A stretch of 64,000 bases of DNA from Bacteroidota bacterium. GTDB taxonomy: Bacteria > Bacteroidota > Bacteroidia > Bacteroidales > UBA12077. The translations under genes and the position numbers were made by a program. Position 1 is the first letter of the stretch, and each line of letters opens with the position of its first letter. The notes beneath the pieces are model-generated. The model saw only the letters and a program-made list of their open reading frames with translations. It did no database searches and had not been told where the DNA came from. This document shows, one piece after another, positions 42,101 through 54,156 of this stretch. The stretch covers positions 62,001-126,000 of the forward strand of contig JAHLLG010000001.1 of the NCBI GenBank assembly GCA_020444275.1, written 5' to 3'.

Positions 42101-42721
42101 ATGATAAAAAAAGAGCATTTAGCAGCAAAACTATTTAAGAACTTAACCTGGCATTTTGCAGGTAAAGAGAATGAGCTTTTTTTAACATTCGATGATGGAC
42201 CAAATCCCGAACTCACGCCGTGGATACTGGAAACATTAGATGAGTTTGATGCCAAAGCAACTTTCTTTTGCATAGGTGGGAAAGCTGAAAAATATCCTGA
42301 CTTAATCGAGCGAATTATTGAAAAAGGCCATTCCATAGGAAATCACGGTTATCTTCATATGGATGGTTGGGTAACGCAAACAGAAAGATATGTGAAGAAC
42401 ATTCAGAGGGCAGCACAGTTTATTAATTCCGACTTGTTTCGTCCGCCTTATGGAAGAATTCGCCCAAGGCAAGCCCAAAGAATTAAGCAGGAGTTTAATA
42501 TCATTATGTGGGATGTTTTACCCAAAGATTTCGATAAGAGTATTTCAAAGGAGGATTGTTTAAGCAGGGCATTAACATATGCTGAATCGGGCTCTATTAT
42601 TGTATTGCATGATAATATGAAAGCAGAAAAAAAGCTTAGATATGTTTTACCTCTTATCCTGAAGCATTTTAATGATGAGGGATATGTATTTAATCCTATT
42701 GAGTATAAGAAATTAGTTTAG
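42101..42721 (+). CDS. NodB-type polysaccharide deacetylase
   Basis: Removes N- or O-acetyl groups from a glycan. The 206-residue protein has motif 1 LTFDDGPNP with both aspartates, motif 2 GHSIGNHGYLH with the metal histidines, motif 3 RPPYGRIRP and the C-terminal IIVLHDN. There is no signal peptide, so it may be cytoplasmic or exported otherwise. The end overlaps the convergent nucleotidyltransferase by 4 nt. Confidence 0.92.
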   Translation: MIKKEHLAAKLFKNLTWHFAGKENELFLTFDDGPNPELTPWILETLDEFDAKATFFCIGGKAEKYPDLIERIIEKGHSIGNHGYLHMDGWVTQTERYVKNIQRAAQFINSDLFRPPYGRIRPRQAQRIKQEFNIIMWDVLPKDFDKSISKEDCLSRALTYAESGSIIVLHDNMKAEKKLRYVLPLILKHFNDEGYVFNPIEYKKLV

Positions 42722-43896
42722 CTCAGTTTCTTTTTTTTAAATACGAATTTATAAATCAACAAGAACGGTCGCAAGAGGTAATAAAGAAAGAATAATCGAT
42801 CGTTTAACCGAATAATTTCCCAATCGGTTAAGTGTGTTCGCAATCGATAAAGCAAATCAAAGTGGTACTTGAAAGTTGGTTTTATGCGTAATCGATAGAG
42901 TACAAGTTTTAATTTTCCGCTGATTCCTTTTTGATTTAAATCTGTTGTTCGAATTGAATGCAAAGCGGTTTTTATTAGTCGGGATTTTATGTTCTGATGG
43001 TTCATAATTGTTAGATCGGAATTAAAGAGTAAACCGGACAGATAACACGCTTGTTTAAAACTTCTTCCTAACTTTAATTGTTTCGATTTCTCATAAGCTT
43101 TATCCAAATACTCAGCACTGGAATTTGCCAGGATTACCGAAAAATCTTTCAGCCAAAACAGTCGGTACCATTGATGAATTGAACCATGTGCAGCCTGGTA
43201 TACGAGGTTGTCGATTTTTGAAATATAGGGCAGATTGTAGTTAGAAATCTTTATCTTCCGGCAATTTTCGATAATATCTTTTGTTTCTACACCATAAAAT
43301 GATTTCGGGTTAGTAATATTCCAGTGAAGCTCAACCTGAGTGATTTGAGCAGGGTGCTTAAAATGATAATGATGACTAATACTGTAATTAGCTTTCTGTT
43401 GTTTGGCAGATAGTTTAAAGTTGGGATAAATGCAATCAAAGCCCAAATCTTCAATAATCAGCTTTGCTTTTTCAACATCCTGCTTATCAACTAAAACATC
43501 GATATCTCTAAAATTTCTAAATCCAACATCTTGATACAATTCTAGCGATAGCAAGGGTCCTTTAAAAAAACAGTGCTTAATGTTAAACTCTTCAAATTTC
43601 TGATAAATGCGTATGGCATGAATAGCAAAATTTAATGAAATCTTTGATCGATCTAGTCGTATTTCCATCAATTTTTCATAGGTAGGAATAGGAATATGTT
43701 CCGCCAGAAATTTAGCATATTTTAAAACGTGCGAAGTTAAGCGGTGTTTAATTACGAGATTTAAAAATTCTTCCCAGTCGATGTTGGGAAGATTCCCATC
43801 AAAAGGAATGCTTTCAATCGAATCTTGCGATAAATAGATAAGCAATCTTAATTCATCTGGGAATTTTTGTTTAATATGTTTCCTGGTTCTGTTCAT
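42718..43896 (-). CDS. Nucleotidyltransferase-family protein of the lasso cluster
   Basis: The 392-residue protein belongs to the NTP_transf_5 type (PF14907-like). The metal site is FRNFRDIDVLVDKQDVEKA, a G-x-R-x-x-x-D-I-D-like pattern, followed by LGFDCIYPNF and a helical C-terminus with QAAHGSIHQWYRLFWLKD. Such genes recur in lasso-peptide clusters that also have a kinase; as I recall, in pseudomycoidin a homolog adds hexose to the phosphorylated tail. Here it shares a 4-nt ATGA overlap with the cyclase gene, so it belongs to the same transcript. A tailoring role is inferred. Confidence 0.78.
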   Translation of the reverse strand: MNRTRKHIKQKFPDELRLLIYLSQDSIESIPFDGNLPNIDWEEFLNLVIKHRLTSHVLKYAKFLAEHIPIPTYEKLMEIRLDRSKISLNFAIHAIRIYQKFEEFNIKHCFFKGPLLSLELYQDVGFRNFRDIDVLVDKQDVEKAKLIIEDLGFDCIYPNFKLSAKQQKANYSISHHYHFKHPAQITQVELHWNITNPKSFYGVETKDIIENCRKIKISNYNLPYISKIDNLVYQAAHGSIHQWYRLFWLKDFSVILANSSAEYLDKAYEKSKQLKLGRSFKQACYLSGLLFNSDLTIMNHQNIKSRLIKTALHSIRTTDLNQKGISGKLKLVLYRLRIKPTFKYHFDLLYRLRTHLTDWEIIRLNDRLFFLYYLLRPFLLIYKFVFKKKKLS

Positions 43897-45773
43897 GTAA
43901 AAAGTGATGGATTTTTCTCAATAAAGAGTATAAGTTTTATGTACGTATAAAACGCTCCCGGGTTTACATATTTATGATCTTTGGTTCTGTTGCTTAAGTT
44001 ATAAAACCATTGTTCCAATTTATCCAGATCAATATATTTTTTTATGATTTCATTTTGTTTTGCGCTGCTAATGAGTTGTTCGAATTGATCTTTATTATGA
44101 ATCATCCGCATAAAAACTGTTGGAATGGTTGCACCGCTTTTGTCGTTACGCCACTGTATTTTTTCAGGTAAAATACCTTCCATGGCTCTGCGAATAATAT
44201 ATCGGCCAATACCATTTCTGGCTTTTAACCTTGGAGGAACCGACAAATAAAACTCAATGAGTCGAATATCGAGCAACGGGTAACGATACTCGATACCGTA
44301 TTTTCGTGCAATTAAGGAACAATATTCCAACCGCTGCGAAACATGCGGATGCGTTATTCGCTCAATATTTTTTTCTTGCAATGTTTCTCTTGCAATAGCT
44401 CGATAATACGCGTCGTACCTTTTTTTAATGCGCAGTTTTTGTTCATAATTAGCATTTAGTGCGAGGTTTTTATATTTGTTTTTCCACCACGGTTTATCTG
44501 GTTTTAGAACACGTAAAAAATTATAAATACCCGGAAGTTTCGATTTAATATAAAGTTTTAAGAACGATTTTGTAAAGCTTATTTTTTTAGGATATTGATT
44601 CTTCAAATCAACCTTAATCTCTTGCCAGTTGCTGTTTTGTGCAAGTTCATACAAATATCCTGATGCTTTAGATGTAATTACCTCGTCGCCTCCAAAACCT
44701 GAAAGTAAAACGGTTACGTTTTCTTGTTGTGCTTTTTCATACAGTTGATCTGAAAACACTCCGAAATTTTGTTGCGATAAACTTTGATAATATTCAAGAT
44801 GATCCTGAAGTGAATCTAAAAGAGATTTTTCTGAAGTAATAAAATGTTTATCGGAGATATTACAGTGTTCAGTCAGCATGTGAATAAATTCTCGCTCATC
44901 TTTATGTGGGAATATTTTTCCCAGTTTTGAATCTGGAAGAATGTGAGAGAACGTTTTTATTTTTGAAAACTGAGATGCGAGCGCAGCAACACTGGAAGAA
45001 TCAATCCCTCCACTTAATTCTGTTCCGGTACTTTTCTGGTTTTCTACTCTGCATTTCACTGCTTCTGTGAGAATAGCAGTAAACTCCTGAATAACCTCAG
45101 CGTCTTTTTTGTGAACTGTTTCCTTTGTTTGAAGTCTCCAGTATTCTTTCAATTCAATTTGTCCATTTTTTAAAGTAAGAGAATGACCGGGAGGCAAACT
45201 TTTTATTTCGTTGTAAGTAGTTCGCTCTTTCTCCGACTTGATGATAGATAATGAATCGGCAACCTGCTGCTGATCAATCGAAAACGTCAAATCTTTTTGA
45301 GCTAAAATAGCAGCAATATCCGATGAAAAGATAAAAGTGTTACCTTCAAAGTAATAATGAAAAGGCTTTACACCCAGGTGATCGCGGGCACAAAAAAGTT
45401 CTTTTGCTTCTTTATTCCAAATGGTAAAGGCAAAATCGCCGATTAAATGGTGTACACATTTTTCACCCCACTCTTCGTATGATTTCAGAATCAACTCATC
45501 GGAAGTAATTTCATTATCGCCGATATCTAAATCTCTTAGAAGTTCATGTTTGTTATAGATCACCGCATCGGAGAGTAAGATTAGTTCAGACTTCTCTGTT
45601 GTAGTTATTTCTTTATGTGTCGGAAAGTTTATTTGACCAAGAGCATAATCATATGCAATGACCTTTTCCTGGATGTAATCTTTCAAAACAGACAATTGAT
45701 CTAAACTCTGTTCAAAAAGGTTTATTGGCAGGGGAGTATGATCAGTATGAATTCTTCCAAAAATCGATCTCAT
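43893..45773 (-). CDS. Lasso peptide cyclase, asparagine-synthetase-like (C protein)
   Basis: Adenylates the acidic side chain of the core and closes the macrolactam ring. The 626-residue protein has an N-terminal glutaminase-like domain (MRSIFGRIH) without Cys2, so it cannot use glutamine, as in lasso cyclases. The ATP-pyrophosphatase loop is ELSGGIDSSSVAAL (about 253-266), with LSGFGGDEVITSKASG following. An ATG at 45800 would add nine residues, but a -7 box at 45788-45795 lies between, so the inner start is preferred. Divergent from the kinase gene and coupled to the nucleotidyltransferase. Confidence 0.86.
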   Translation of the reverse strand: MRSIFGRIHTDHTPLPINLFEQSLDQLSVLKDYIQEKVIAYDYALGQINFPTHKEITTTEKSELILLSDAVIYNKHELLRDLDIGDNEITSDELILKSYEEWGEKCVHHLIGDFAFTIWNKEAKELFCARDHLGVKPFHYYFEGNTFIFSSDIAAILAQKDLTFSIDQQQVADSLSIIKSEKERTTYNEIKSLPPGHSLTLKNGQIELKEYWRLQTKETVHKKDAEVIQEFTAILTEAVKCRVENQKSTGTELSGGIDSSSVAALASQFSKIKTFSHILPDSKLGKIFPHKDEREFIHMLTEHCNISDKHFITSEKSLLDSLQDHLEYYQSLSQQNFGVFSDQLYEKAQQENVTVLLSGFGGDEVITSKASGYLYELAQNSNWQEIKVDLKNQYPKKISFTKSFLKLYIKSKLPGIYNFLRVLKPDKPWWKNKYKNLALNANYEQKLRIKKRYDAYYRAIARETLQEKNIERITHPHVSQRLEYCSLIARKYGIEYRYPLLDIRLIEFYLSVPPRLKARNGIGRYIIRRAMEGILPEKIQWRNDKSGATIPTVFMRMIHNKDQFEQLISSAKQNEIIKKYIDLDKLEQWFYNLSNRTKDHKYVNPGAFYTYIKLILFIEKNPSLFT

Positions 45774-45787
45774 AAAAACGGTTTTAA

Positions 45788-45795
45788 CAAAGATA
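45788..45795 (-). promoter_or_regulatory. Candidate promoter -7 box of the cyclase-nucleotidyltransferase pair
   Basis: TATCTTTG on the minus strand is a full match to TAnnTTTG, 14 nt upstream of the ATG at 45773. No -33 TTTG is seen at the right distance. Confidence 0.45.
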
Positions 45796-45862
45796 CGCAA
45801 ATGCCTAACATAATTCTATAGCTAAAATTGCTAACAAAGCTTAGTTTTAACTGTTTTTCGTG

Positions 45863-45879: not shown

Positions 45880-46776
45880 ATGAGTAGAACGCACACATAT
45901 AAAGCTTTTGGATTAAATATCCGGTCTGAATTTGAAATTCCTGAGTTTCTTAGTTCAGAAGGAGATTCTGATGTTGAAATCATGCTGGATAAAGTGCCCG
46001 AAAAGCTTAAAGAAATAACTAAGCAGGGAGTAAGATACCAGGCCACAAGAAACGAGTTTTTGTTAACTGTAGATCAGATAGCAAAATTTTACGTAAGCAA
46101 TGGTAATAAAATTACCGTTGAGCTTTTAAAAGATCAGGCGGATAAAGAAGTTCGTCTGTTTTTATTGGGTTCAGCAATGGGGGCGTTGTTTGTACAGCGT
46201 GGATTGTTACCCGTACATGGAAGCACCATAAAGCTAAACGATAAAGCAACCATTTTTACCGGTTTAAGCGGTGTGGGAAAATCGACCATAGCTGCGCATT
46301 TTGTCCAACAGGGGTTTTTAGCTCTGGCTGATGATATTAGTGTAGTGAACGAAGAGTTGCAAGTGGTTCCCGGATTTCCAAGTCTTAAAATCTGGGATGA
46401 CGTATTACAAAAACTTCGGGTAAACAATGAGTTATTAAATCAGATACGGCCCAATATTAAGAAATTTCAGTTACCTATAACAGAGCAGTATTTTACTGAA
46501 CCATTGCCTCTGGGAAATATTGTAATCTTAAACACAAAAAATTCACCGGGATTCGAGTTCGAAGAGCTAACCGGAATCAAAAAGTTTAATGCCATAAAAA
46601 GTAATACGTATCGGTATCGATTTGTGCATGGATTAGAAAAGCAACAAGATCATTTCCAGTTGCTCAATAAGCTGCTACCCAAAATTAAAGTATTTCGTGT
46701 TACACGACCACAGGCACCATTGACACTGGAAGAATTTGGCGCGTATATCTTGAATAAGTTAAAGCAACATGGCTAA
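45880..46776 (+). CDS. HPr-kinase-like lasso peptide kinase
   Basis: The 298-residue protein has the HPr kinase/phosphorylase core: PVHGS with His113, P-loop FTGLSGVGKST (126-136) and ADDISVV with Asp151-152, preceded by a divergent N-terminal region of about 100 residues. No carbon-catabolite context is present. Proteins of this type in lasso clusters (paeninodin PadeK) phosphorylate the C-terminal serine of the precursor, and the precursor here (49670-49816) indeed ends in Ser. The gene overlaps the sulfotransferase by 8 nt. Confidence 0.8.
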   Translation: MSRTHTYKAFGLNIRSEFEIPEFLSSEGDSDVEIMLDKVPEKLKEITKQGVRYQATRNEFLLTVDQIAKFYVSNGNKITVELLKDQADKEVRLFLLGSAMGALFVQRGLLPVHGSTIKLNDKATIFTGLSGVGKSTIAAHFVQQGFLALADDISVVNEELQVVPGFPSLKIWDDVLQKLRVNNELLNQIRPNIKKFQLPITEQYFTEPLPLGNIVILNTKNSPGFEFEELTGIKKFNAIKSNTYRYRFVHGLEKQQDHFQLLNKLLPKIKVFRVTRPQAPLTLEEFGAYILNKLKQHG

Positions 46777-47635
46777 AAAAAATATCATATGGCTTGCGAG
46801 TTATCCAAAATCAGGAAATACATGGTTCAGAGTGTTTCTCACGAACCTGTTGTACGAATCGGAAACACCCGCTAATATTAACGATTTAGCCGAAACTTCT
46901 ATTTCAAGTTCACGAAAAATTTTTGATGAGTATACCGGGTTATCAGCTGCCGATTTAACATTTGATGAAATTGACAAATTGCGACCTGATGTCTATCGTA
47001 TGCAATCCGAAGAGTCTGATGAACTATTGTTTAAAAAAGCACACGATAAATATCATTGGGTAGATATAAACCAGCCACTTTTCCCGACTGAAATTTCCAA
47101 AGGAGCTGTTTATTTTATCCGAAATCCCCTGGATGTGCTGGTTTCATTCGCTTATCATAGTGCGCGGCCTGTTACTAAAATGATCAAAGCCATCAATAAC
47201 TCGGAGTATGCTTTTTGCGATAAAAGCGATAAATTACAAAATCAGTTAAGACAGTTGTTGGGAAGCTGGTCCGATCATGTCAAGAGCTGGACAGAGCAAA
47301 AAGAAATTCCCGTACAGGTGATGCGTTATGAAGATATGATAGCTGACACGTTCAACACATTTAAACAAGCGATTGAATTTCTGGATGTAAAGAAGTCCGA
47401 TGAAGAGATTGAGCAGGCTATAAAAAAGAGCAGTTTTTCCGTATTAGCTGAACAAGAATCCAGCGATGGTTTTAAAGAAAAAATGATTAAATCCAAAGCC
47501 TTTTTCAGAAAAGGGCAGGTGGGCGACTGGCGAAACCATTTAAATGAACGAGAAGCACAGGAAATAGTTAATTGTCATAAAGATATTATGCGAAAATTTG
47601 GGTATTTGGATGAAAATGATGAATTGAATTTTTAA
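46769..47635 (+). CDS. PAPS-dependent sulfotransferase of the lasso cluster
   Basis: The 288-residue cytosolic-type sulfotransferase has the 5'-phosphosulfate loop SYPKSGNTW (11-19), the 3'-phosphate motif VYFIRNPLDVLVSFAYHSA, QVMRYEDM and the C-terminal RKGQVGDWRNHL. It is translationally coupled to the kinase, which places it in the lasso cluster. A sulfate ester on Thr or Ser of the peptide, or on a sugar added to it, is the natural guess but unproven. Confidence 0.82.
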   Translation: MAKKNIIWLASYPKSGNTWFRVFLTNLLYESETPANINDLAETSISSSRKIFDEYTGLSAADLTFDEIDKLRPDVYRMQSEESDELLFKKAHDKYHWVDINQPLFPTEISKGAVYFIRNPLDVLVSFAYHSARPVTKMIKAINNSEYAFCDKSDKLQNQLRQLLGSWSDHVKSWTEQKEIPVQVMRYEDMIADTFNTFKQAIEFLDVKKSDEEIEQAIKKSSFSVLAEQESSDGFKEKMIKSKAFFRKGQVGDWRNHLNEREAQEIVNCHKDIMRKFGYLDENDELNF

Positions 47636-47783: not shown

Positions 47784-48554
47784 GTGACAAAAGAAAAATT
47801 TCAAGATAAATACAGAATTGAATCCAATAGAAATCAAAATTGGGATTATTCATCACCAGCACATTATTTTATAACTATTTGTACTGCAAACAGGGAGCAT
47901 TATTTTGGGGAAATAGTTAATTCCGAAATGAATTTATCAAAAATTGGTAAAATTGCGTATGAAGAATGGTTGAAAACACCTGGATTACGCCCTGATATGA
48001 ATATTCATTTAGATGAATTTTGCATAATGCCAAACCATTTTCATGCCATTATTGGATGGGGTGATAATCAATGTTGTAGACCCACATTGCAATGTGGGTC
48101 TACAACTGCAAACAGGGAGCATTATTTTGGGGAAATAGTTAATTCCGAAATGAATTTATCAAAAATTGGTAAAATTGCGTATGAAGAATGGTTGAAAACA
48201 CCTGGATTACGCCCTGATATGAATATTCATTTAGATGAATTTTGCATAATGCCAAACCATTTTCATGCCATTATTGGATGGGGTGATAATCAATGTTGTA
48301 GACCCACATTGCAATGTGGGTCTACAACGCGTTCTGCATTAAAATTGCAAAATATAGAACCAAACAAATTTGGCCCACAATCGAAAAATTTAGGAGCCAT
48401 AATACGTGGTTTTAAATCATCGGTAAAAACACAGGCAACGGTTAATAATATTAATTTTGCATGGCAACCAAATTACCATGATCATATCATCAGAAATGAA
48501 CAAGAATTTAAACGAATTAAATATTATATTCGAAATAACCCGAAAAATTGGTGA
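47784..48554 (+). CDS. REP-associated tyrosine transposase with internal tandem duplication
   Basis: The 256-residue IS200-like Y1 transposase begins at a GTG. It has ICTANREHYFGEIV, the HUH-type motif MPNHFHAIIGW and the catalytic-tyrosine helix RIKYYIRNNPKNW. A 74-residue unit (TANREHYFG to LQCGST) occurs twice with identical sequence, so the HUH motif is present twice and the protein is longer than the usual 180 residues. It is probably inactive, although the frame is intact. Each copy ends in a long palindrome inside the coding region. It lies between the sulfotransferase and B1 genes and thus interrupts the lasso cluster. Confidence 0.87.
   Translation: MTKEKFQDKYRIESNRNQNWDYSSPAHYFITICTANREHYFGEIVNSEMNLSKIGKIAYEEWLKTPGLRPDMNIHLDEFCIMPNHFHAIIGWGDNQCCRPTLQCGSTTANREHYFGEIVNSEMNLSKIGKIAYEEWLKTPGLRPDMNIHLDEFCIMPNHFHAIIGWGDNQCCRPTLQCGSTTRSALKLQNIEPNKFGPQSKNLGAIIRGFKSSVKTQATVNNINFAWQPNYHDHIIRNEQEFKRIKYYIRNNPKNW
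47883..48328 (+). repeat. Exact 222-bp tandem duplication inside the transposase gene
   Basis: The unit from 47883 recurs at 48105 with an offset of 222 bp (74 codons), and I find no difference between the copies. It keeps the frame. The boundary falls at the palindrome (34 bp perfect, 48073-48106 and again 48295-48328), so slippage or recombination at the palindrome is the likely cause. Confidence 0.9.
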
Positions 48555-48846: not shown

Positions 48847-49128
48847 ATGAACATAACATTAAACACAACCATTCAACGAAACCCTGAAATTTTGGCCAGC
48901 GATCTGGATGGCGAAAAAGTGATGATGAGCATTCAACAGGGAGAATATTATGGGTTAGGAAAAACCGGTACGTTTATTTGGGATCATATCGAAGAACCTA
49001 TTACTATAAAAGAACTGGTGGCATTAATTACCACAAAGTATAACGTATCGAATGAGCAATGTTTTCAGGATATAAAACCATTCATAACTGATTTGATTGA
49101 AAAACAGTTAATTATTGAAACAAAATAG
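48847..49128 (+). CDS. PqqD-like lasso leader-binding protein (B1)
   Basis: The 93-residue protein is a RiPP recognition element of the PqqD fold: DLDGEKVMMSIQQGEYYGLGKTGTFIWDHI, then a helical half with TIKELVALITTKYNVSNEQCFQDI. B1 proteins bind the leader peptide and present it to the B2 peptidase. It is 33 nt upstream of B2, the usual order. In this cluster its target would be the W-x-x-P-x-L leader motif at residues 19-24 of the precursor. Confidence 0.88.
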   Translation: MNITLNTTIQRNPEILASDLDGEKVMMSIQQGEYYGLGKTGTFIWDHIEEPITIKELVALITTKYNVSNEQCFQDIKPFITDLIEKQLIIETK

Positions 49129-49161: not shown

Positions 49162-49599
49162 ATGTTCAAAAAGATAAAAAAATATTATAGCATTGATCAA
49201 ACCGAACGTAAAATTTTGAATCGGACATTCTTTTGGTTAGTTTATGCTTTTGTATTGGTACGATTTATTCCCTTACGATGGTTTAGCTCGTTGTTAGGGA
49301 AGTTTAATTATCAAGCAGAAGAAAAGATAGATGAACGACAAATGCAGCATATTATCTTGTTCAGGAAAAACCTGAGACGATTAAAAAAGGTTTTACCCTG
49401 GCAGGTGAAATGTTTTGAAGAAGCTATTGCAGGGAAAAAAGTTCTAATTAATTATGATATAAAAGCAACCCTCTATTTAGGTGTAGCCAAGGAGGGTGAG
49501 CAGAACCTGAAAGCGCATGCCTGGCTCAAAAGCGGTGCCCAGTTTATTACCGGAGAGCGAGGATATAAAAACTATACCGTAGTAGGTTTTTACAGTTGA
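49162..49599 (+). CDS. Lasso peptide leader peptidase (B2, transglutaminase-like)
   Basis: The 145-residue protein matches the Transglut_core3 fold of lasso B2 proteins. The catalytic cysteine is Cys84 in WQVKCFEEA and the histidine His119 in LKAHAWLKSG; ATLYLGVAKEG lies between. The acidic third residue of the triad is not obvious after AHAW. It cuts the precursor after the leader, here predicted between Glu33 and Gly34. It stands between B1 and the precursor gene. Confidence 0.88.
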   Translation: MFKKIKKYYSIDQTERKILNRTFFWLVYAFVLVRFIPLRWFSSLLGKFNYQAEEKIDERQMQHIILFRKNLRRLKKVLPWQVKCFEEAIAGKKVLINYDIKATLYLGVAKEGEQNLKAHAWLKSGAQFITGERGYKNYTVVGFYS

Positions 49600-49635: not shown

Positions 49636-49643
49636 TAAATTTG
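49636..49643 (+). promoter_or_regulatory. Candidate precursor-gene promoter -7 box
   Basis: TAAATTTG matches TAnnTTTG 26 nt upstream of the precursor ATG. The nearest TTTG (49620-49623) is only 12 nt away, closer than usual. It would allow separate strong transcription of the precursor. Confidence 0.4.
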
Positions 49644-49669: not shown

Positions 49670-49816
49670 ATGAAGGAAAAAGATTTCGATAATAAATTAA
49701 GTCAAGAAGAGACAAAACTCGAGTGGGAAGCTCCTAAATTGTTTTGTTTGGATAAGAAAGAGACAGAAGGAGGACCATTAACTGCTACAACAGAAACCTT
49801 TACCGGAGGGTCTTAA
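49670..49816 (+). CDS. Lasso peptide precursor (A), 48 residues
   Basis: A short gene directly after B2. The leader carries W19-E-A-P22-K-L24, the Y/W-x-x-P-x-L motif bound by B1 proteins, and Thr32 at the penultimate leader position, the lasso hallmark. Cleavage after Glu33 gives the 15-residue core GGPLTATTETFTGGS: Gly1 as ring nucleophile and Glu9 (residue 42) as acceptor for a 9-membered macrolactam, a six-residue tail with Phe11, and a C-terminal Ser15 suited to the HPr-like kinase. Five of the 15 residues are Thr. At 15 residues it would be among the shortest lasso peptides. The fold itself is inferred from the cluster. The next gene starts 23 nt later without a terminator. Confidence 0.86.
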   Translation: MKEKDFDNKLSQEETKLEWEAPKLFCLDKKETEGGPLTATTETFTGGS

Positions 49817-49839: not shown

Positions 49840-52800
49840 ATGAAAGAAATTGTAGTATTATTATTACTAATTATTGCTATAAATCATGGATACTGTCAGA
49901 ATTATTCAGCATCAAATTATTTATCTAGCACCAATAGAATTGATAATCTCGAAAGTGTTTTAGATGATGACGGAAATACATATGTTCTTGGAAGGTTTTT
50001 ATCAGATATTGAATCAGAGGGAATAACTTCTCAAGGTAGTTATGACTTGTTTTTAGCTAAATTTTCATTTGATCAAGATTTAGAATGGATAAAAACAATT
50101 AGTTGTAGTGCTTGGGATGAGTATGGAGGAATTGCAATTAGCGAAAATCAGGAGTTATACGTTACTGGTTCATTTCAGTCTAATGTTTTTTTTACAGAAA
50201 ATGATTCATTAATAAACACAGGAATTTTAGACGCTTTTTTAGCTAAATATGATTTAAATGGAAACTTGATTTTTAAAAAAAATATTGCTTTCGGAGGTTC
50301 GTTGCAAAAGAGTTCAGGAATAAGCATTGATAAAAACCAGGATATAATTATTGTTGGACAGTTTATTGATTCAGTTTCAACGGAAGGTGCTACAGTTTAC
50401 AGTAATCGTTCAAGTAGACAAAATTACTTGCTAAAGCTAGATTCTGATGGCAACAGTCAGTCTATAATACATTATGAAAATTCTAATTCTAATACTGTAT
50501 TTACATCTTTAAGGGCTTTTGATGATGGTTATTATTTGAGCGGAAATTTAAAAGATTCACTTTTTCTTAGTTTTGGAACTTACACTAGTCAGAGTGGTTC
50601 TATTGACATGTTTTTAATGAAGACTGATTATAATGGAACCCCTATCTGGATAAGGAAAAGCTATGGCAACGAAAATGATTTAACAGGAACAATTGATCGT
50701 GATAGCTATGGCAATATCATTTATGGTGGTTATTTTAATAGTGATACAATTACTGTAGATTCAACTAATTCTGTGGTGGGGAGTGAAATAATAAATAAAG
50801 GAACTACAGATTTAATCTTTTATAAATATAATAAATCTGGGAATTTATTATGGAAGAAAAGCTATGGTGCTAAAGGTGCTGATTTTGTGCGCGATATTTA
50901 TGTGGACAATGATTTCATTAATATAACAGGTTATTTAGCAGACACGGTTATTTTAGGTTTAGACACTTTAAGAACACAAAGTAGTTCGGATAAGGATGTT
51001 TTTATTGCAACTTTAAATACCAATGGGAATGTCATTAATTCGTCCATAATTAATGGTCTTGAGCCAGATGAAGAGGAAGGAGGGAAATCTATAAATAATT
51101 ATAAAAACAATTTAATTGTTAATGGGTATTTTCAATCAAGCAGTTTTCAGATAGGCGATAGCCTTTATTCAAATCTAGGCATCCAATCATTTTTCACATT
51201 TAAGTATGAATTACCATTTAGAGTTACATTTACAGAGATTGAGGAAATTTCCTGCCCCGGTCAAAGTGATGGCCAACTTACTGTAACACCCTATTTTGGG
51301 GTTGCACCATATACTTTTTCATGGAGCCATAATGGAACATTAGCAGATTCAACTGCAATAGGGTTAGGTCCGGGAACTTATTCGGTTACGGTTACCGATG
51401 CGGTGGATTCAACAGCAGTAGTAAGTTACGATTTAACCGAGCCGGATGTTATTACCTTTAATCCTGCCATTATAAATGTAACGCAATGTAGTTACACCGA
51501 AGAAGGAGAAATAGATGTTTCTGTTGCCGGTGGTAACGGAGGCTATCAGTATCAATGGCTGGCAACCGATGGTGGCTGTGGTTTGGCACTACAAGCTGAA
51601 GATCAGACTAATCTTAGCCAGGGAACATATCAAGTTACCGTAACTGATAGTAAAGGTTGTACCGGGGATACTACAATAAATATTACAGCTCCCGATCCAA
51701 TGACGTTTGGAGGAACCCTAGTTACCGATTCATCAGATTTAGGAGCTGGAGCAATAGACCTTATTTATTCCGGAGGGTTTGGTGATCCGGCATCGTTTGC
51801 TTTCGATTGGCAAGGACCTTTCGGATTTACCCAAACAACCGAAAATATATCAAATTTACGTCCGGGAAACTATGAAGTTACCGTTACCGATGTGCGCCTT
51901 TGCGAGTTTGACACGTTATTTAATGTTGCCAACTTAGATACATTCTATACGTATATTGCGAAGTATAAAGATGCATGTAATGGAACGATTAATGGTACAG
52001 CAACGGTTGATTTTTATTCTCCTGATAGCCATGAATCTATAACATACCAGTGGGATGCCAATGCAGACAACCAAGAAACAGCTCAGGCAACAAATCTGGC
52101 ACCCGGAAGATATTATTACGTTACAGTTACCGATACCGAAAATAGTCCAATAATCGAAATGGTTGATAGTGTATATATTGATGTGTTACCATATACATTT
52201 GAAGGTGAACTTTCCGGTACAACTACGTTAGACTGTAATGGCGATCTGGATGGTTATATTGATTTAACCATTACTAGTCAGGGAGAAAAACCCTACAGTT
52301 ATAATTGGAGTAACGGATCTACATTACAGGATTTAACCAATTTAGGAATTGGAACCTATAGCGTTACGGTAACTGATAAGTATAATTGTGAGTTTGCAAT
52401 TACTAATTATAGTATTGATCAGCCAACTCCGGTTTCTGCAGTAGCTGAGATTGTGAAATCACCTTCATGCAATGGCGATTTTAATGGAGAAGTAACCGTT
52501 GACAGAAGTGGAGGAACAGCTCCGTATAATTATCAATGGGATGATCCTGGATTCCAGGATACACATAATGCAGATGGTTTAGACGCAGGATATTATAATG
52601 TTACGGTAAGTGATGTAAATGGATGCGAAGCGACTTCTGGGGTCAATTTAACGGAGCCGGCTGCAATAAGTATGAGTAAGGTCATAGATAATGAGGATTG
52701 TAACGGTGCCGGAGAAGGGGCTATTGCACTTACAGTAAATGGAGGAACTACACCGTTCAGCTATTCATGGTCTACAACCGATGGTTCGGGATTGGTGCTC

Positions 52801-54156
52801 ACGGATAAGAACCAAAGTGGATTAACCGCAGGGAAATATTACGTAACTGCAACCGATAATAACAATTGCGTGTATGAAGATAGTGCTGAAGTTACAGAAC
52901 CACCATTATTGGAAATAACCAATGAGACAAAAACAGATGTTAATACCTGTAACGGAGATAATACTGGATCAATAGAGATAACAGCATCAGGCGGAACAGG
53001 TGCGTTAACCTACACATTAAATCCTGGAGCCATTGAAAGTAATGCAACAGGATCATTTAGTGGTCTTGGCGCTGGAAACTATTCTGTTGATGTTACAGAC
53101 CAGAATTTGTGTACTGTTACCTCAAGTTCATTTACAATAACAGAACCTACTACTTTAACATTAACTGAGGACGATTTGAATAATGTAACATGTAATGGCA
53201 CCAATACGGGTAGTATTCTTATTTCAGTTTCAGGAGGAACAGTGGCTTCGAATTATTCTTACAACTGGAGTACATCTGACGGATCCGGAATCTCTGCAGG
53301 ATTGCAGGATCAGTTAGCATTGGGAGCAGGAACCTATTCATTAACAGTAACCGATGATAATGCATGTGAAATTACGGATCTGTATACCATAACAGAACCA
53401 GCGGAAATTGTTATTACCAAAACATTATACGATATTTCGTGTCATGATGGAGTTGATGGAGTTATTGTGATTAACCATACCGGTGGAGTAATGCCATTCT
53501 CATATTATTGGACAACAGACGATGGTAGCGGACTTGATCCGGTCAATCGAAATCAGGGGGGATTAAGTGCTGGCACCTATAATTTGGAGATTACAGATGC
53601 CATAGGTTGTGTAGTTAACGAAACAAGTGTTATAACCGATCCACCTGCAATACAAATAGATTCGGAATCGTCGACAGACGCAAGTGGTGAAGACGCAAGC
53701 GATGGAACCATAACAGTTGAAGCATCTGGTGGTACAGGAAGCTTAACATATACTTTAAGACCAGTTAATAAATCTAATCAAACAGGGGTGTTTAGTTCGG
53801 TTTCTCCGGGAGAATATACCGTTGAAGTTATTGATGAAAACTATTGCGGACCGGTAGCATCTGGTACACTAACGATTAGCTATCCGAATGCCACTAAGGT
53901 AGATTTTATCTATAGTGATATTATTAAACTATATCCTAATCCTACCAGCAGTAAATTTTATGTTGAAATGGATTATACAAAAGGAATAACTATTGAAGTG
54001 TTAAGTTTAACCGGACAATCTATAGTTAAAGAAAAGATACATCCTTCCGGTTTTATGAAGAAGGAAATTGATATTTCTGATGAAGCAAAAGGAATATACT
54101 TAATTAGAATTTATAACGATGAAATAAGTTATAAAACAAAAGTTATGCTTCAATAA
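49840..54156 (+). CDS. T9SS-sorted giant protein with SprB-type repeats
   Basis: The 1438-residue protein has a signal peptide (about 1-19, GYCQ). Residues 30-460 look like a beta-propeller made of SBBP-like repeats (DLFLAKFSFDQDLEWIKTI and similar). I count 11 SprB-type repeats (about 470-1350), each with GTxPYxYxW, then GLGxGxYSVTVTD and a Cys. The C-terminus has YPNPTSSKFYVEMD, the T9SS type A sorting domain (about 1365-1438). SprB is the gliding adhesin of this phylum; this protein could be a surface adhesin. It starts 23 nt after the lasso precursor, so the two may share a transcript. Confidence 0.88.
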   Translation: MKEIVVLLLLIIAINHGYCQNYSASNYLSSTNRIDNLESVLDDDGNTYVLGRFLSDIESEGITSQGSYDLFLAKFSFDQDLEWIKTISCSAWDEYGGIAISENQELYVTGSFQSNVFFTENDSLINTGILDAFLAKYDLNGNLIFKKNIAFGGSLQKSSGISIDKNQDIIIVGQFIDSVSTEGATVYSNRSSRQNYLLKLDSDGNSQSIIHYENSNSNTVFTSLRAFDDGYYLSGNLKDSLFLSFGTYTSQSGSIDMFLMKTDYNGTPIWIRKSYGNENDLTGTIDRDSYGNIIYGGYFNSDTITVDSTNSVVGSEIINKGTTDLIFYKYNKSGNLLWKKSYGAKGADFVRDIYVDNDFINITGYLADTVILGLDTLRTQSSSDKDVFIATLNTNGNVINSSIINGLEPDEEEGGKSINNYKNNLIVNGYFQSSSFQIGDSLYSNLGIQSFFTFKYELPFRVTFTEIEEISCPGQSDGQLTVTPYFGVAPYTFSWSHNGTLADSTAIGLGPGTYSVTVTDAVDSTAVVSYDLTEPDVITFNPAIINVTQCSYTEEGEIDVSVAGGNGGYQYQWLATDGGCGLALQAEDQTNLSQGTYQVTVTDSKGCTGDTTINITAPDPMTFGGTLVTDSSDLGAGAIDLIYSGGFGDPASFAFDWQGPFGFTQTTENISNLRPGNYEVTVTDVRLCEFDTLFNVANLDTFYTYIAKYKDACNGTINGTATVDFYSPDSHESITYQWDANADNQETAQATNLAPGRYYYVTVTDTENSPIIEMVDSVYIDVLPYTFEGELSGTTTLDCNGDLDGYIDLTITSQGEKPYSYNWSNGSTLQDLTNLGIGTYSVTVTDKYNCEFAITNYSIDQPTPVSAVAEIVKSPSCNGDFNGEVTVDRSGGTAPYNYQWDDPGFQDTHNADGLDAGYYNVTVSDVNGCEATSGVNLTEPAAISMSKVIDNEDCNGAGEGAIALTVNGGTTPFSYSWSTTDGSGLVLTDKNQSGLTAGKYYVTATDNNNCVYEDSAEVTEPPLLEITNETKTDVNTCNGDNTGSIEITASGGTGALTYTLNPGAIESNATGSFSGLGAGNYSVDVTDQNLCTVTSSSFTITEPTTLTLTEDDLNNVTCNGTNTGSILISVSGGTVASNYSYNWSTSDGSGISAGLQDQLALGAGTYSLTVTDDNACEITDLYTITEPAEIVITKTLYDISCHDGVDGVIVINHTGGVMPFSYYWTTDDGSGLDPVNRNQGGLSAGTYNLEITDAIGCVVNETSVITDPPAIQIDSESSTDASGEDASDGTITVEASGGTGSLTYTLRPVNKSNQTGVFSSVSPGEYTVEVIDENYCGPVASGTLTISYPNATKVDFIYSDIIKLYPNPTSSKFYVEMDYTKGITIEVLSLTGQSIVKEKIHPSGFMKKEIDISDEAKGIYLIRIYNDEISYKTKVMLQ

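Follow-up and report, generated by a model that had tools for sequence, protein, structure and literature searches.

Lasso peptides are known mainly as released antibiotics or as ligands of enzymes or receptors, and their precursors combine a leader motif with Thr at position -2, Gly1 and Glu or Asp at core positions 7-9. In the relevant passages of two published accounts, the C-terminal Ser is the residue phosphorylated by PadeK-type kinases, which have a His-Lys-Asp-Asp motif in common, and pseudomycoidin involves a kinase and a nucleotidyltransferase, with a sugar added on the C-terminal Ser phosphate (PMC9266682; PMC8498205). A sulfotransferase in lasso clusters had already been noted in passages of a 2014 paper and a 2021 review (PMC4289311; PMC8498205). 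For each of the three enzymes, presence in lasso clusters is already published. Our searches of the open-access literature, with subscription papers and preprints outside their scope, found no report of a lasso precursor-propeller cassette and no paper that treats lasso peptides together with type IX secretion (T9SS). As far as these searches reach, the coupling of a lasso precursor to a type IX-secreted propeller is undescribed.

The window analysed here is a stretch of 64,000 nucleotides from a Bacteroidota bacterium (contig JAHLLG010000001.1), and its features are collected in Table 1. NT and C lie on the minus strand and are followed on the plus strand by K, ST, a transposase relative, B1, B2, A and the gene of a secreted protein of 1438 aa. 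B1 and B2 are the sole matches to NF033536 and NF033537, respectively, in the window's genome. The best match of C was the lasso-cyclase model NF033535; the next one, asn_synth_AEB, was also below its own cut-off. A preliminary description of this DNA had based the lasso fold on a cluster of A, B1, B2 and C. Its B1 and B2 hold, both scoring above the lasso cut-offs, whereas C proved to lie on the other strand, outside the same gene run, and to score below its cut-off. Two cluster members, NT and the type IX-secreted propeller gene, were absent from that description. Rfam and tRNA scans of the window gave no matches.

Table 1. Features of the lasso precursor-propeller locus, in coordinates of the window
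Feature	Position	Strand	Basis or remark
NT, uncharacterised nucleotidyltransferase	42718..43896	-	PF14907, 158.8 bits
C, asparagine-synthase-like macrolactam cyclase	43893..45800	-	PF00733, PF13537; NF033535, 413 bits, below cut-off 525
K, HPr-kinase homologue (presumed kinase of C-terminal Ser)	45880..46776	+	kinase models, below cut-offs
ST, sulfotransferase	46769..47635	+	PF00685, 106.5 bits
REP-associated transposase relative between ST and B1	47784..48554	+	taken as an insertion, outside the system
B1, PqqD-like leader-binding protein	48847..49128	+	NF033536, 99.3 bits, cut-off 80
B2, leader peptidase (transglutaminase-like)	49162..49599	+	NF033537, 73 bits, cut-off 33
TAAATTTG, Bacteroidota-type -7 promoter box (TAnnTTTG) ahead of A	49636..49643	+	comparative, 12 genus loci
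A, lasso precursor gene (48 aa)	49670..49816	+	ORF, motifs, relatives
Leader motif WEAPKL (W-x-x-P-x-L)	49724..49741	+	W-E-x-P-K-L, common to the window and 11 genus loci
Predicted core GGPLTATTETFTGGS, ring Gly1-Glu9, C-terminal Ser15	49769..49813	+	sequence; 12 genus cores compared
Propeller partner: N-terminal hydrophobic leader, beta-propeller, SprB repeats, T9SS sorting domain	49840..54156	+	23 nt after A
T9SS C-terminal sorting domain of the propeller protein (residues 1364-1435)	53929..54144	+	PF18962, 41.8 bits, cut-off 27

Gene A starts 70 nt past the end of B2, with its ATG at 49670 and its stop codon at 49814-49816, and its product divides into the leader MKEKDFDNKLSQEETKLEWEAPKLFCLDKKETE and the core GGPLTATTETFTGGS. 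The short gene that the preliminary description had placed after B1 and B2 was found just as described, with the W-x-x-P-x-L motif in its leader and with Thr at -2, Gly1 and Glu9 around the predicted cut site, which together make up the precursor pattern given above. We take WEAPKL to be the putative B1-binding motif. The proposed ring of nine residues with a six-residue tail fits the core, provided that Glu9 is the acceptor. Against the paeninodin family model NF033524 the product scored 13.1 bits, below the cut-off of 27. Both the content of the cluster and its comparative anatomy give the lasso-precursor reading good support, and gene A very probably encodes such a precursor.

Among 25 genomes of the family, B1 scored over its cut-off in 14, and wider DNA was taken for the 13 other than the window's. 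The order NT-C-K-ST-B1-B2-A, followed by the secreted protein, was the same in the window and in 11 loci, all of one genus. TMEM260-like and polysaccharide deacetylase genes flank one side in the window and in all 11 genus loci; purD stands on the other flank in the window and in 8 of the 11, the remaining three contigs having ended or been cut before that point. Since purD also lies near lasso genes in another genus and in other families (loci L019, L030, L035, L045, L055, L062 and L067), a recent insertion at a random site is unlikely. In L019, which belongs to another genus, the order is ST-B1-B2-A-propeller, and the contig starts inside ST. L027 has a diverged B1-B2 pair beside purD, and no A was found at that locus. 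In L075 (genome G003), TMEM260-like, K and ST genes adjoin purD without matches to B1, B2 or A, as a remnant or a reduced form. The transposase relative of the window carries, at 47883-48326, a perfect in-frame tandem duplication of 222 bp with a 34-nt palindrome ending each copy, and REP-like repeats of 23-37 nt (four to six copies) lie on both sides of its gene. Similar transposase genes occupy the same spot in L017 and L025.

A leader with W-E-x-P-K-L, LDK and TE is present after B2 in the 11 further genus loci. The 12 genus cores all differ and all end in Ser, and Glu occupies core position 9 in ten of them, position 8 in L026 and position 10 in L021. With Asn at core position 1 in L015, the predicted cut site may be one residue out. 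Mean distances over the 12 loci were 0.46 for the leader, 0.71 for the core, 0.27-0.42 for the biosynthetic proteins and 0.59 for the propeller; mean identity was 0.42 for the propeller (11 sequences) against 0.59-0.73 for the six biosynthetic proteins (12 sequences). The preliminary description had drawn its interest from an undescribed core. That is a weak reason: each of the 11 relatives combines its own core with the same leader, and an unusual core is thus ordinary here. The core itself is unremarkable, and A is a new member of the kinase-type lasso clusters. Upstream of A, a box of the form TAnnTTTG, which we take as the Bacteroidota -7 promoter consensus, begins 31-45 nt 5' of the gene in 10 of the 12 genus loci (absent in L020 and L021), the chance expectation being 0.08 per 130 nt. 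These boxes make it probable that A and the propeller gene form a single unit driven by a promoter of its own. In none of the 12 loci did we find a TTTG at -33 with the usual spacing.

We next consider the tailoring enzymes. Residues H113, K134, D151 and D152 of K, the His-Lys-Asp-Asp set, are invariant across 13 aligned sequences, and the PKSGNTW and RNP-DV stretches of ST are invariant in 14. The window thus holds both marks of a kinase-modified lasso cluster, a homologue with His-Lys-Asp-Asp and a precursor ending in Ser, with the general kinase models below their cut-offs. Across the clusters described below, a C-terminal Ser was found in 26 of 32 precursors and in 11 of 12 distant cassettes. 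Six cluster precursors are without it despite a K in the locus (L030, L038, L046, L047, L056 and L065), as are the distant cassette L086 and the named locus L124. With a kinase homologue of invariant His-Lys-Asp-Asp and a sulfotransferase in the cluster, the earlier expectation of +80 Da shifts is reasonable. Phosphorylation of Ser15 appears quite likely, and sulfation of the A product somewhat likelier than its absence. Tyr was considered as a general sulfation target and set aside, because no Tyr occurs in several of the cores whose loci carry a sulfotransferase, among them that of the window.

Among the best 80 named relatives of ST by similarity, which come from many phyla, K is directly upstream in 65, and B1 or B2 is present as well in 56 of these 65. 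Kinase-sulfotransferase lasso clusters were seen in Proteobacteria, Chloroflexi, Acidobacteria and other phyla (L132, L150, L173 and others), and many of their candidate precursors end in Ser. One such cluster, in a Saprospiraceae MAG (L146, 10108-10598, minus strand), has three candidate precursor genes side by side; their leaders are alike and their cores differ.

The protein encoded behind A has a hydrophobic N-terminus, as read from its sequence, and two features expected of a T9SS cargo were found: its sorting domain scores over the cut-off, and the translocon protein SprA is encoded in the window's genome. Pfam gave no name for the window's own propeller domain. In a structure model, residues 1-430 are all beta (pLDDT 88), and the best PDB match of the modelled propeller was the propeller enzyme CylK, with a TM-score of 0.70-0.74 and 24-25% identity. 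A Pfam scan of six representatives, drawn from another genus or other families, found SprB repeats and the T9SS tail in all six and named SBBP propeller repeats in three. No signalling domain was detected by Pfam in these six or in the window's protein. Residues T262 and Y231 separate precursor-linked from unlinked propellers; this was set aside, as the alignment rests on linked sequences.

We surveyed 393 genomes of the order, of which 28 exceeded the B1 cut-off and 166 had a match at E 0.001 or better. Outside the family there were 42 places at E <=2e-14, and 40 were taken (one at a contig edge, in G071, and one in G351 were omitted), giving a cluster set of 54 loci, that is 53 and the window. 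K, ST, B1, B2, NT and C commonly co-occur in the loci of the order. A precursor, called by pattern and by eye, was found in 32 of the 54. The window and 19 further loci, from five families, have as the next gene after A one whose product opens with a hydrophobic stretch and this propeller domain, at a spacing of 8-72 nt where the first start codon of that gene lies after A; some of these propeller genes run off the contig end. L038 is probably a further cassette, at a contig edge. The propeller follows C in L037 and L039, and in L045 it is found past C, while A is on the opposite strand. A sulfotransferase adjoins B1 in L058, L062, L052 and L059, loci in which no B2 or C was found; in G276 (L062/L077) and G077 (L058/L103), C and A with a propeller are on other contigs.

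A propeller profile matched in 103 of the 393 genomes at E 1e-30. The nine best places adjoin lasso genes, as sequences from which the profile had been built, and the places next after them are in genomes whose B1 locus has no A. Before testing, we set the prediction that A would lie beside the propellers of these latter places, and took 40 propeller places away from lasso loci, namely the matches down to about 232 bits and seven picked by hand (L110-L116, L115 being chosen with the knowledge that its genome has B1). A precursor-type ORF was found upstream at 12 of the 40, with a gap of 7-35 nt in ten, an overlap with the predicted start in L087 and a gap of 119 nt in L080; L080 and L082 miss the strict pattern and were accepted by eye. 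In L080 (G071), A, C, NT and B2 are near the propeller gene, with a short frame between A and the propeller. After L081 and L088, whose gene starts are off the contig, were left out, the precursor was upstream at 12 of 21 loci in lasso-bearing genomes (B1 at E 2e-14 or better) and at 0 of 17 in others (p 0.0002), or at 10 of 21 by the strict pattern (p 0.0008). Without the seven hand-picked loci and the edge locus L105 the counts were 11 of 19 against 0 of 11 (p 0.0016; strict pattern 9 of 19, p 0.011). These p values are rough, as several loci share a genome and are not independent. The twelve distant cassettes fall in seven further families, two of which rest on by-eye cases and one on a hand-picked locus, so that there are up to 12 families in all. 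In ten genomes the B1 locus is without A and the cassette lies elsewhere; C is beside the cassette in five of them.

As a control for chance, upstream pattern matches were counted. They precede 27 of 60 propeller genes, some of whose loci had been selected for their lasso genes, and 9 of 541 other long ORFs; none of these nine looks like a precursor by eye. Four further named contigs carry A before a propeller (L120, L124, L126 and L139; three titled Bacteroidales, L120 Calditrichia). A search of 395 genomes of the class found a propeller at E 1e-60 or better in 17 besides the window's, and a precursor just upstream in 0 of the 17; the four pattern matches at these loci were on the other strand (two), inside the propeller gene (one) or downstream of it (one). 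The precursor is also missing upstream in 9 of the 21 propeller loci of lasso genomes, including a second propeller gene of the window's genome (L116), and many genomes that have no good B1 carry such propellers as well. Mantel tests over the 12 genus loci gave no sign that core and propeller co-vary (r -0.16, p 0.86; partial r -0.14, p 0.85), where n is 12 and the cores are near saturation. An absence control within the family, in which a strong propeller occurred in 12 of 24 genomes, all lasso-bearing, was set aside because the profile was built from most of them. In four genomes without B1 (G001, G005, G009 and G016) the repeat-and-tail end of such a gene lies just upstream of purD on a broken contig; the propeller locus may be unassembled there, and absence within the family is therefore not usable as proof.

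Exporters were sought in the cluster loci by a crude pattern of Walker A and an LSGGQ-type motif, on contigs that were in part short. No ABC exporter turned up in any of the 22 propeller clusters, against 6 of the 10 other clusters with A (p 0.0002), and the same pattern found no ABC transporter in positions 36001-60000 of the window. In L063 and L065, two HPr-kinase homologues flank the sulfotransferase, and an ABC transporter is also present.

From gene content, motifs, conservation and the linkage of the cassette we infer the chemical steps, co-transcription, export, binding and role that follow. The A product would be a class II lasso peptide precursor whose leader is held by B1 and cut by B2 after TE; C would then join Gly1 to Glu9 around the six-residue tail. 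K may phosphorylate the C-terminal Ser15, to whose phosphate NT would probably add a sugar or a nucleotide, and ST would add sulfate somewhere, most likely at the Ser15 adduct or at a Ser or Thr, since the core has no Tyr. A is probably read from its own promoter together with the propeller gene behind it. The propeller protein would leave the cell by the type IX system and stay anchored at its surface, standing where other lasso clusters have an ABC exporter, and the peptide would be its ligand, cargo or cofactor, the two forming a cognate pair. That peptide and propeller work as a pair is suggested by precursor genes directly ahead of the surface-protein gene in many related bacteria. A modified lasso peptide with a cognate surface propeller is the explanation we consider likely for the locus as a whole, and the propeller is, with good probability, the functional partner of the peptide, the two presumably acting together at the cell surface. 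Direct physical binding between them is conceivable and a little doubtful.

Other explanations can be weighed against the same data. That A is a chance ORF is hardly credible: the gene is short and its family score is below threshold, but its leader and position are conserved in 12 genus loci, and the rare ORFs of this kind ahead of other genes are not precursor-like. It is also very improbable that the product is cut by B2 and stays linear or branched, that is, unthreaded. The sub-threshold score of C and the acceptor at position 8 or 10 in two of the 12 genus cores would agree with such a product, yet C is kept beside K in the genus and lies directly upstream of A in several distant cassettes, and Glu9 is present in the other ten cores.

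An ordinary lasso peptide might be freely released and exported by an unlinked pump, the T9SS gene being a neighbour without a role. The lack of core-propeller co-variation and the many propellers in genomes without a good B1 speak for this; the recurrence of the linkage in up to 12 families, also at sites without B1, and the mutual exclusion of ABC exporters and propellers in the clusters examined speak against it and make free release improbable. The propeller could instead be a receptor or immunity protein with which the producer captures its own peptide, for protection or as a sensor of self-recognition, which would be a special form of the proposed pair. Propeller and core both diverge fast, the former faster than the biosynthetic proteins by mean identity, and A and propeller genes stand one to one in most cassettes. 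However, the scanned propeller proteins have no signalling domain and there is no known activity that calls for protection, and we hold this role to be possible and on the whole doubtful.

The proposed pair of modified peptide and surface propeller would, with a precursor gene locked to an adhesin-like surface gene in up to 12 families, be a new setting for lasso peptides. The cassette would help to explain clusters without exporters and supply a testable peptide-receptor pair. It also offers a rule for genome mining: to check upstream of SBBP, SprB and T9SS genes for precursors that are remote from B1 and B2 and may go unassigned by cluster-based tools. A tentative extension, to which we attach limited belief, is that these gene pairs form a polymorphic surface system of Bacteroidales. 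Each cassette would hold one lasso peptide and its own T9SS-displayed propeller, and one modification factory would serve one or several cassettes in trans. The propeller would hold the decorated peptide or be the route of its delivery, and the peptide would be a strain-specific signal of recognition or contact, or a weapon; this would take the place of release by an ABC pump.

Compared with described systems, the window cluster is close to the paeninodin type (PadeA/PadeK, ThcoK, SyanK), with which it shares the split B1/B2, the HPr-kinase homologue, the C-terminal Ser and the His-Lys-Asp-Asp motif. It differs in a precursor that falls short of the family cut-off (13 bits against 27), in that no ABC transporter was found, in its T9SS propeller partner and in near relatives titled Bacteroidales. 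Like pseudomycoidin (PsmK and PsmN), it unites a kinase and a nucleotidyltransferase in one lasso cluster, a likeness by gene kind, NT being a PF14907 protein; in contrast to pseudomycoidin, a sulfotransferase is added and no ABC exporter was found. The kinase and sulfotransferase are also common to clusters of Gram-positive anaerobes and Firmicutes, for which the passages concerned mention no surface partner (PMC4289311; PMC8498205). The partner itself shares fold and domains with the SBBP beta-propeller and SprB-repeat T9SS surface proteins, and differs from them in that its gene sits behind a lasso precursor gene.
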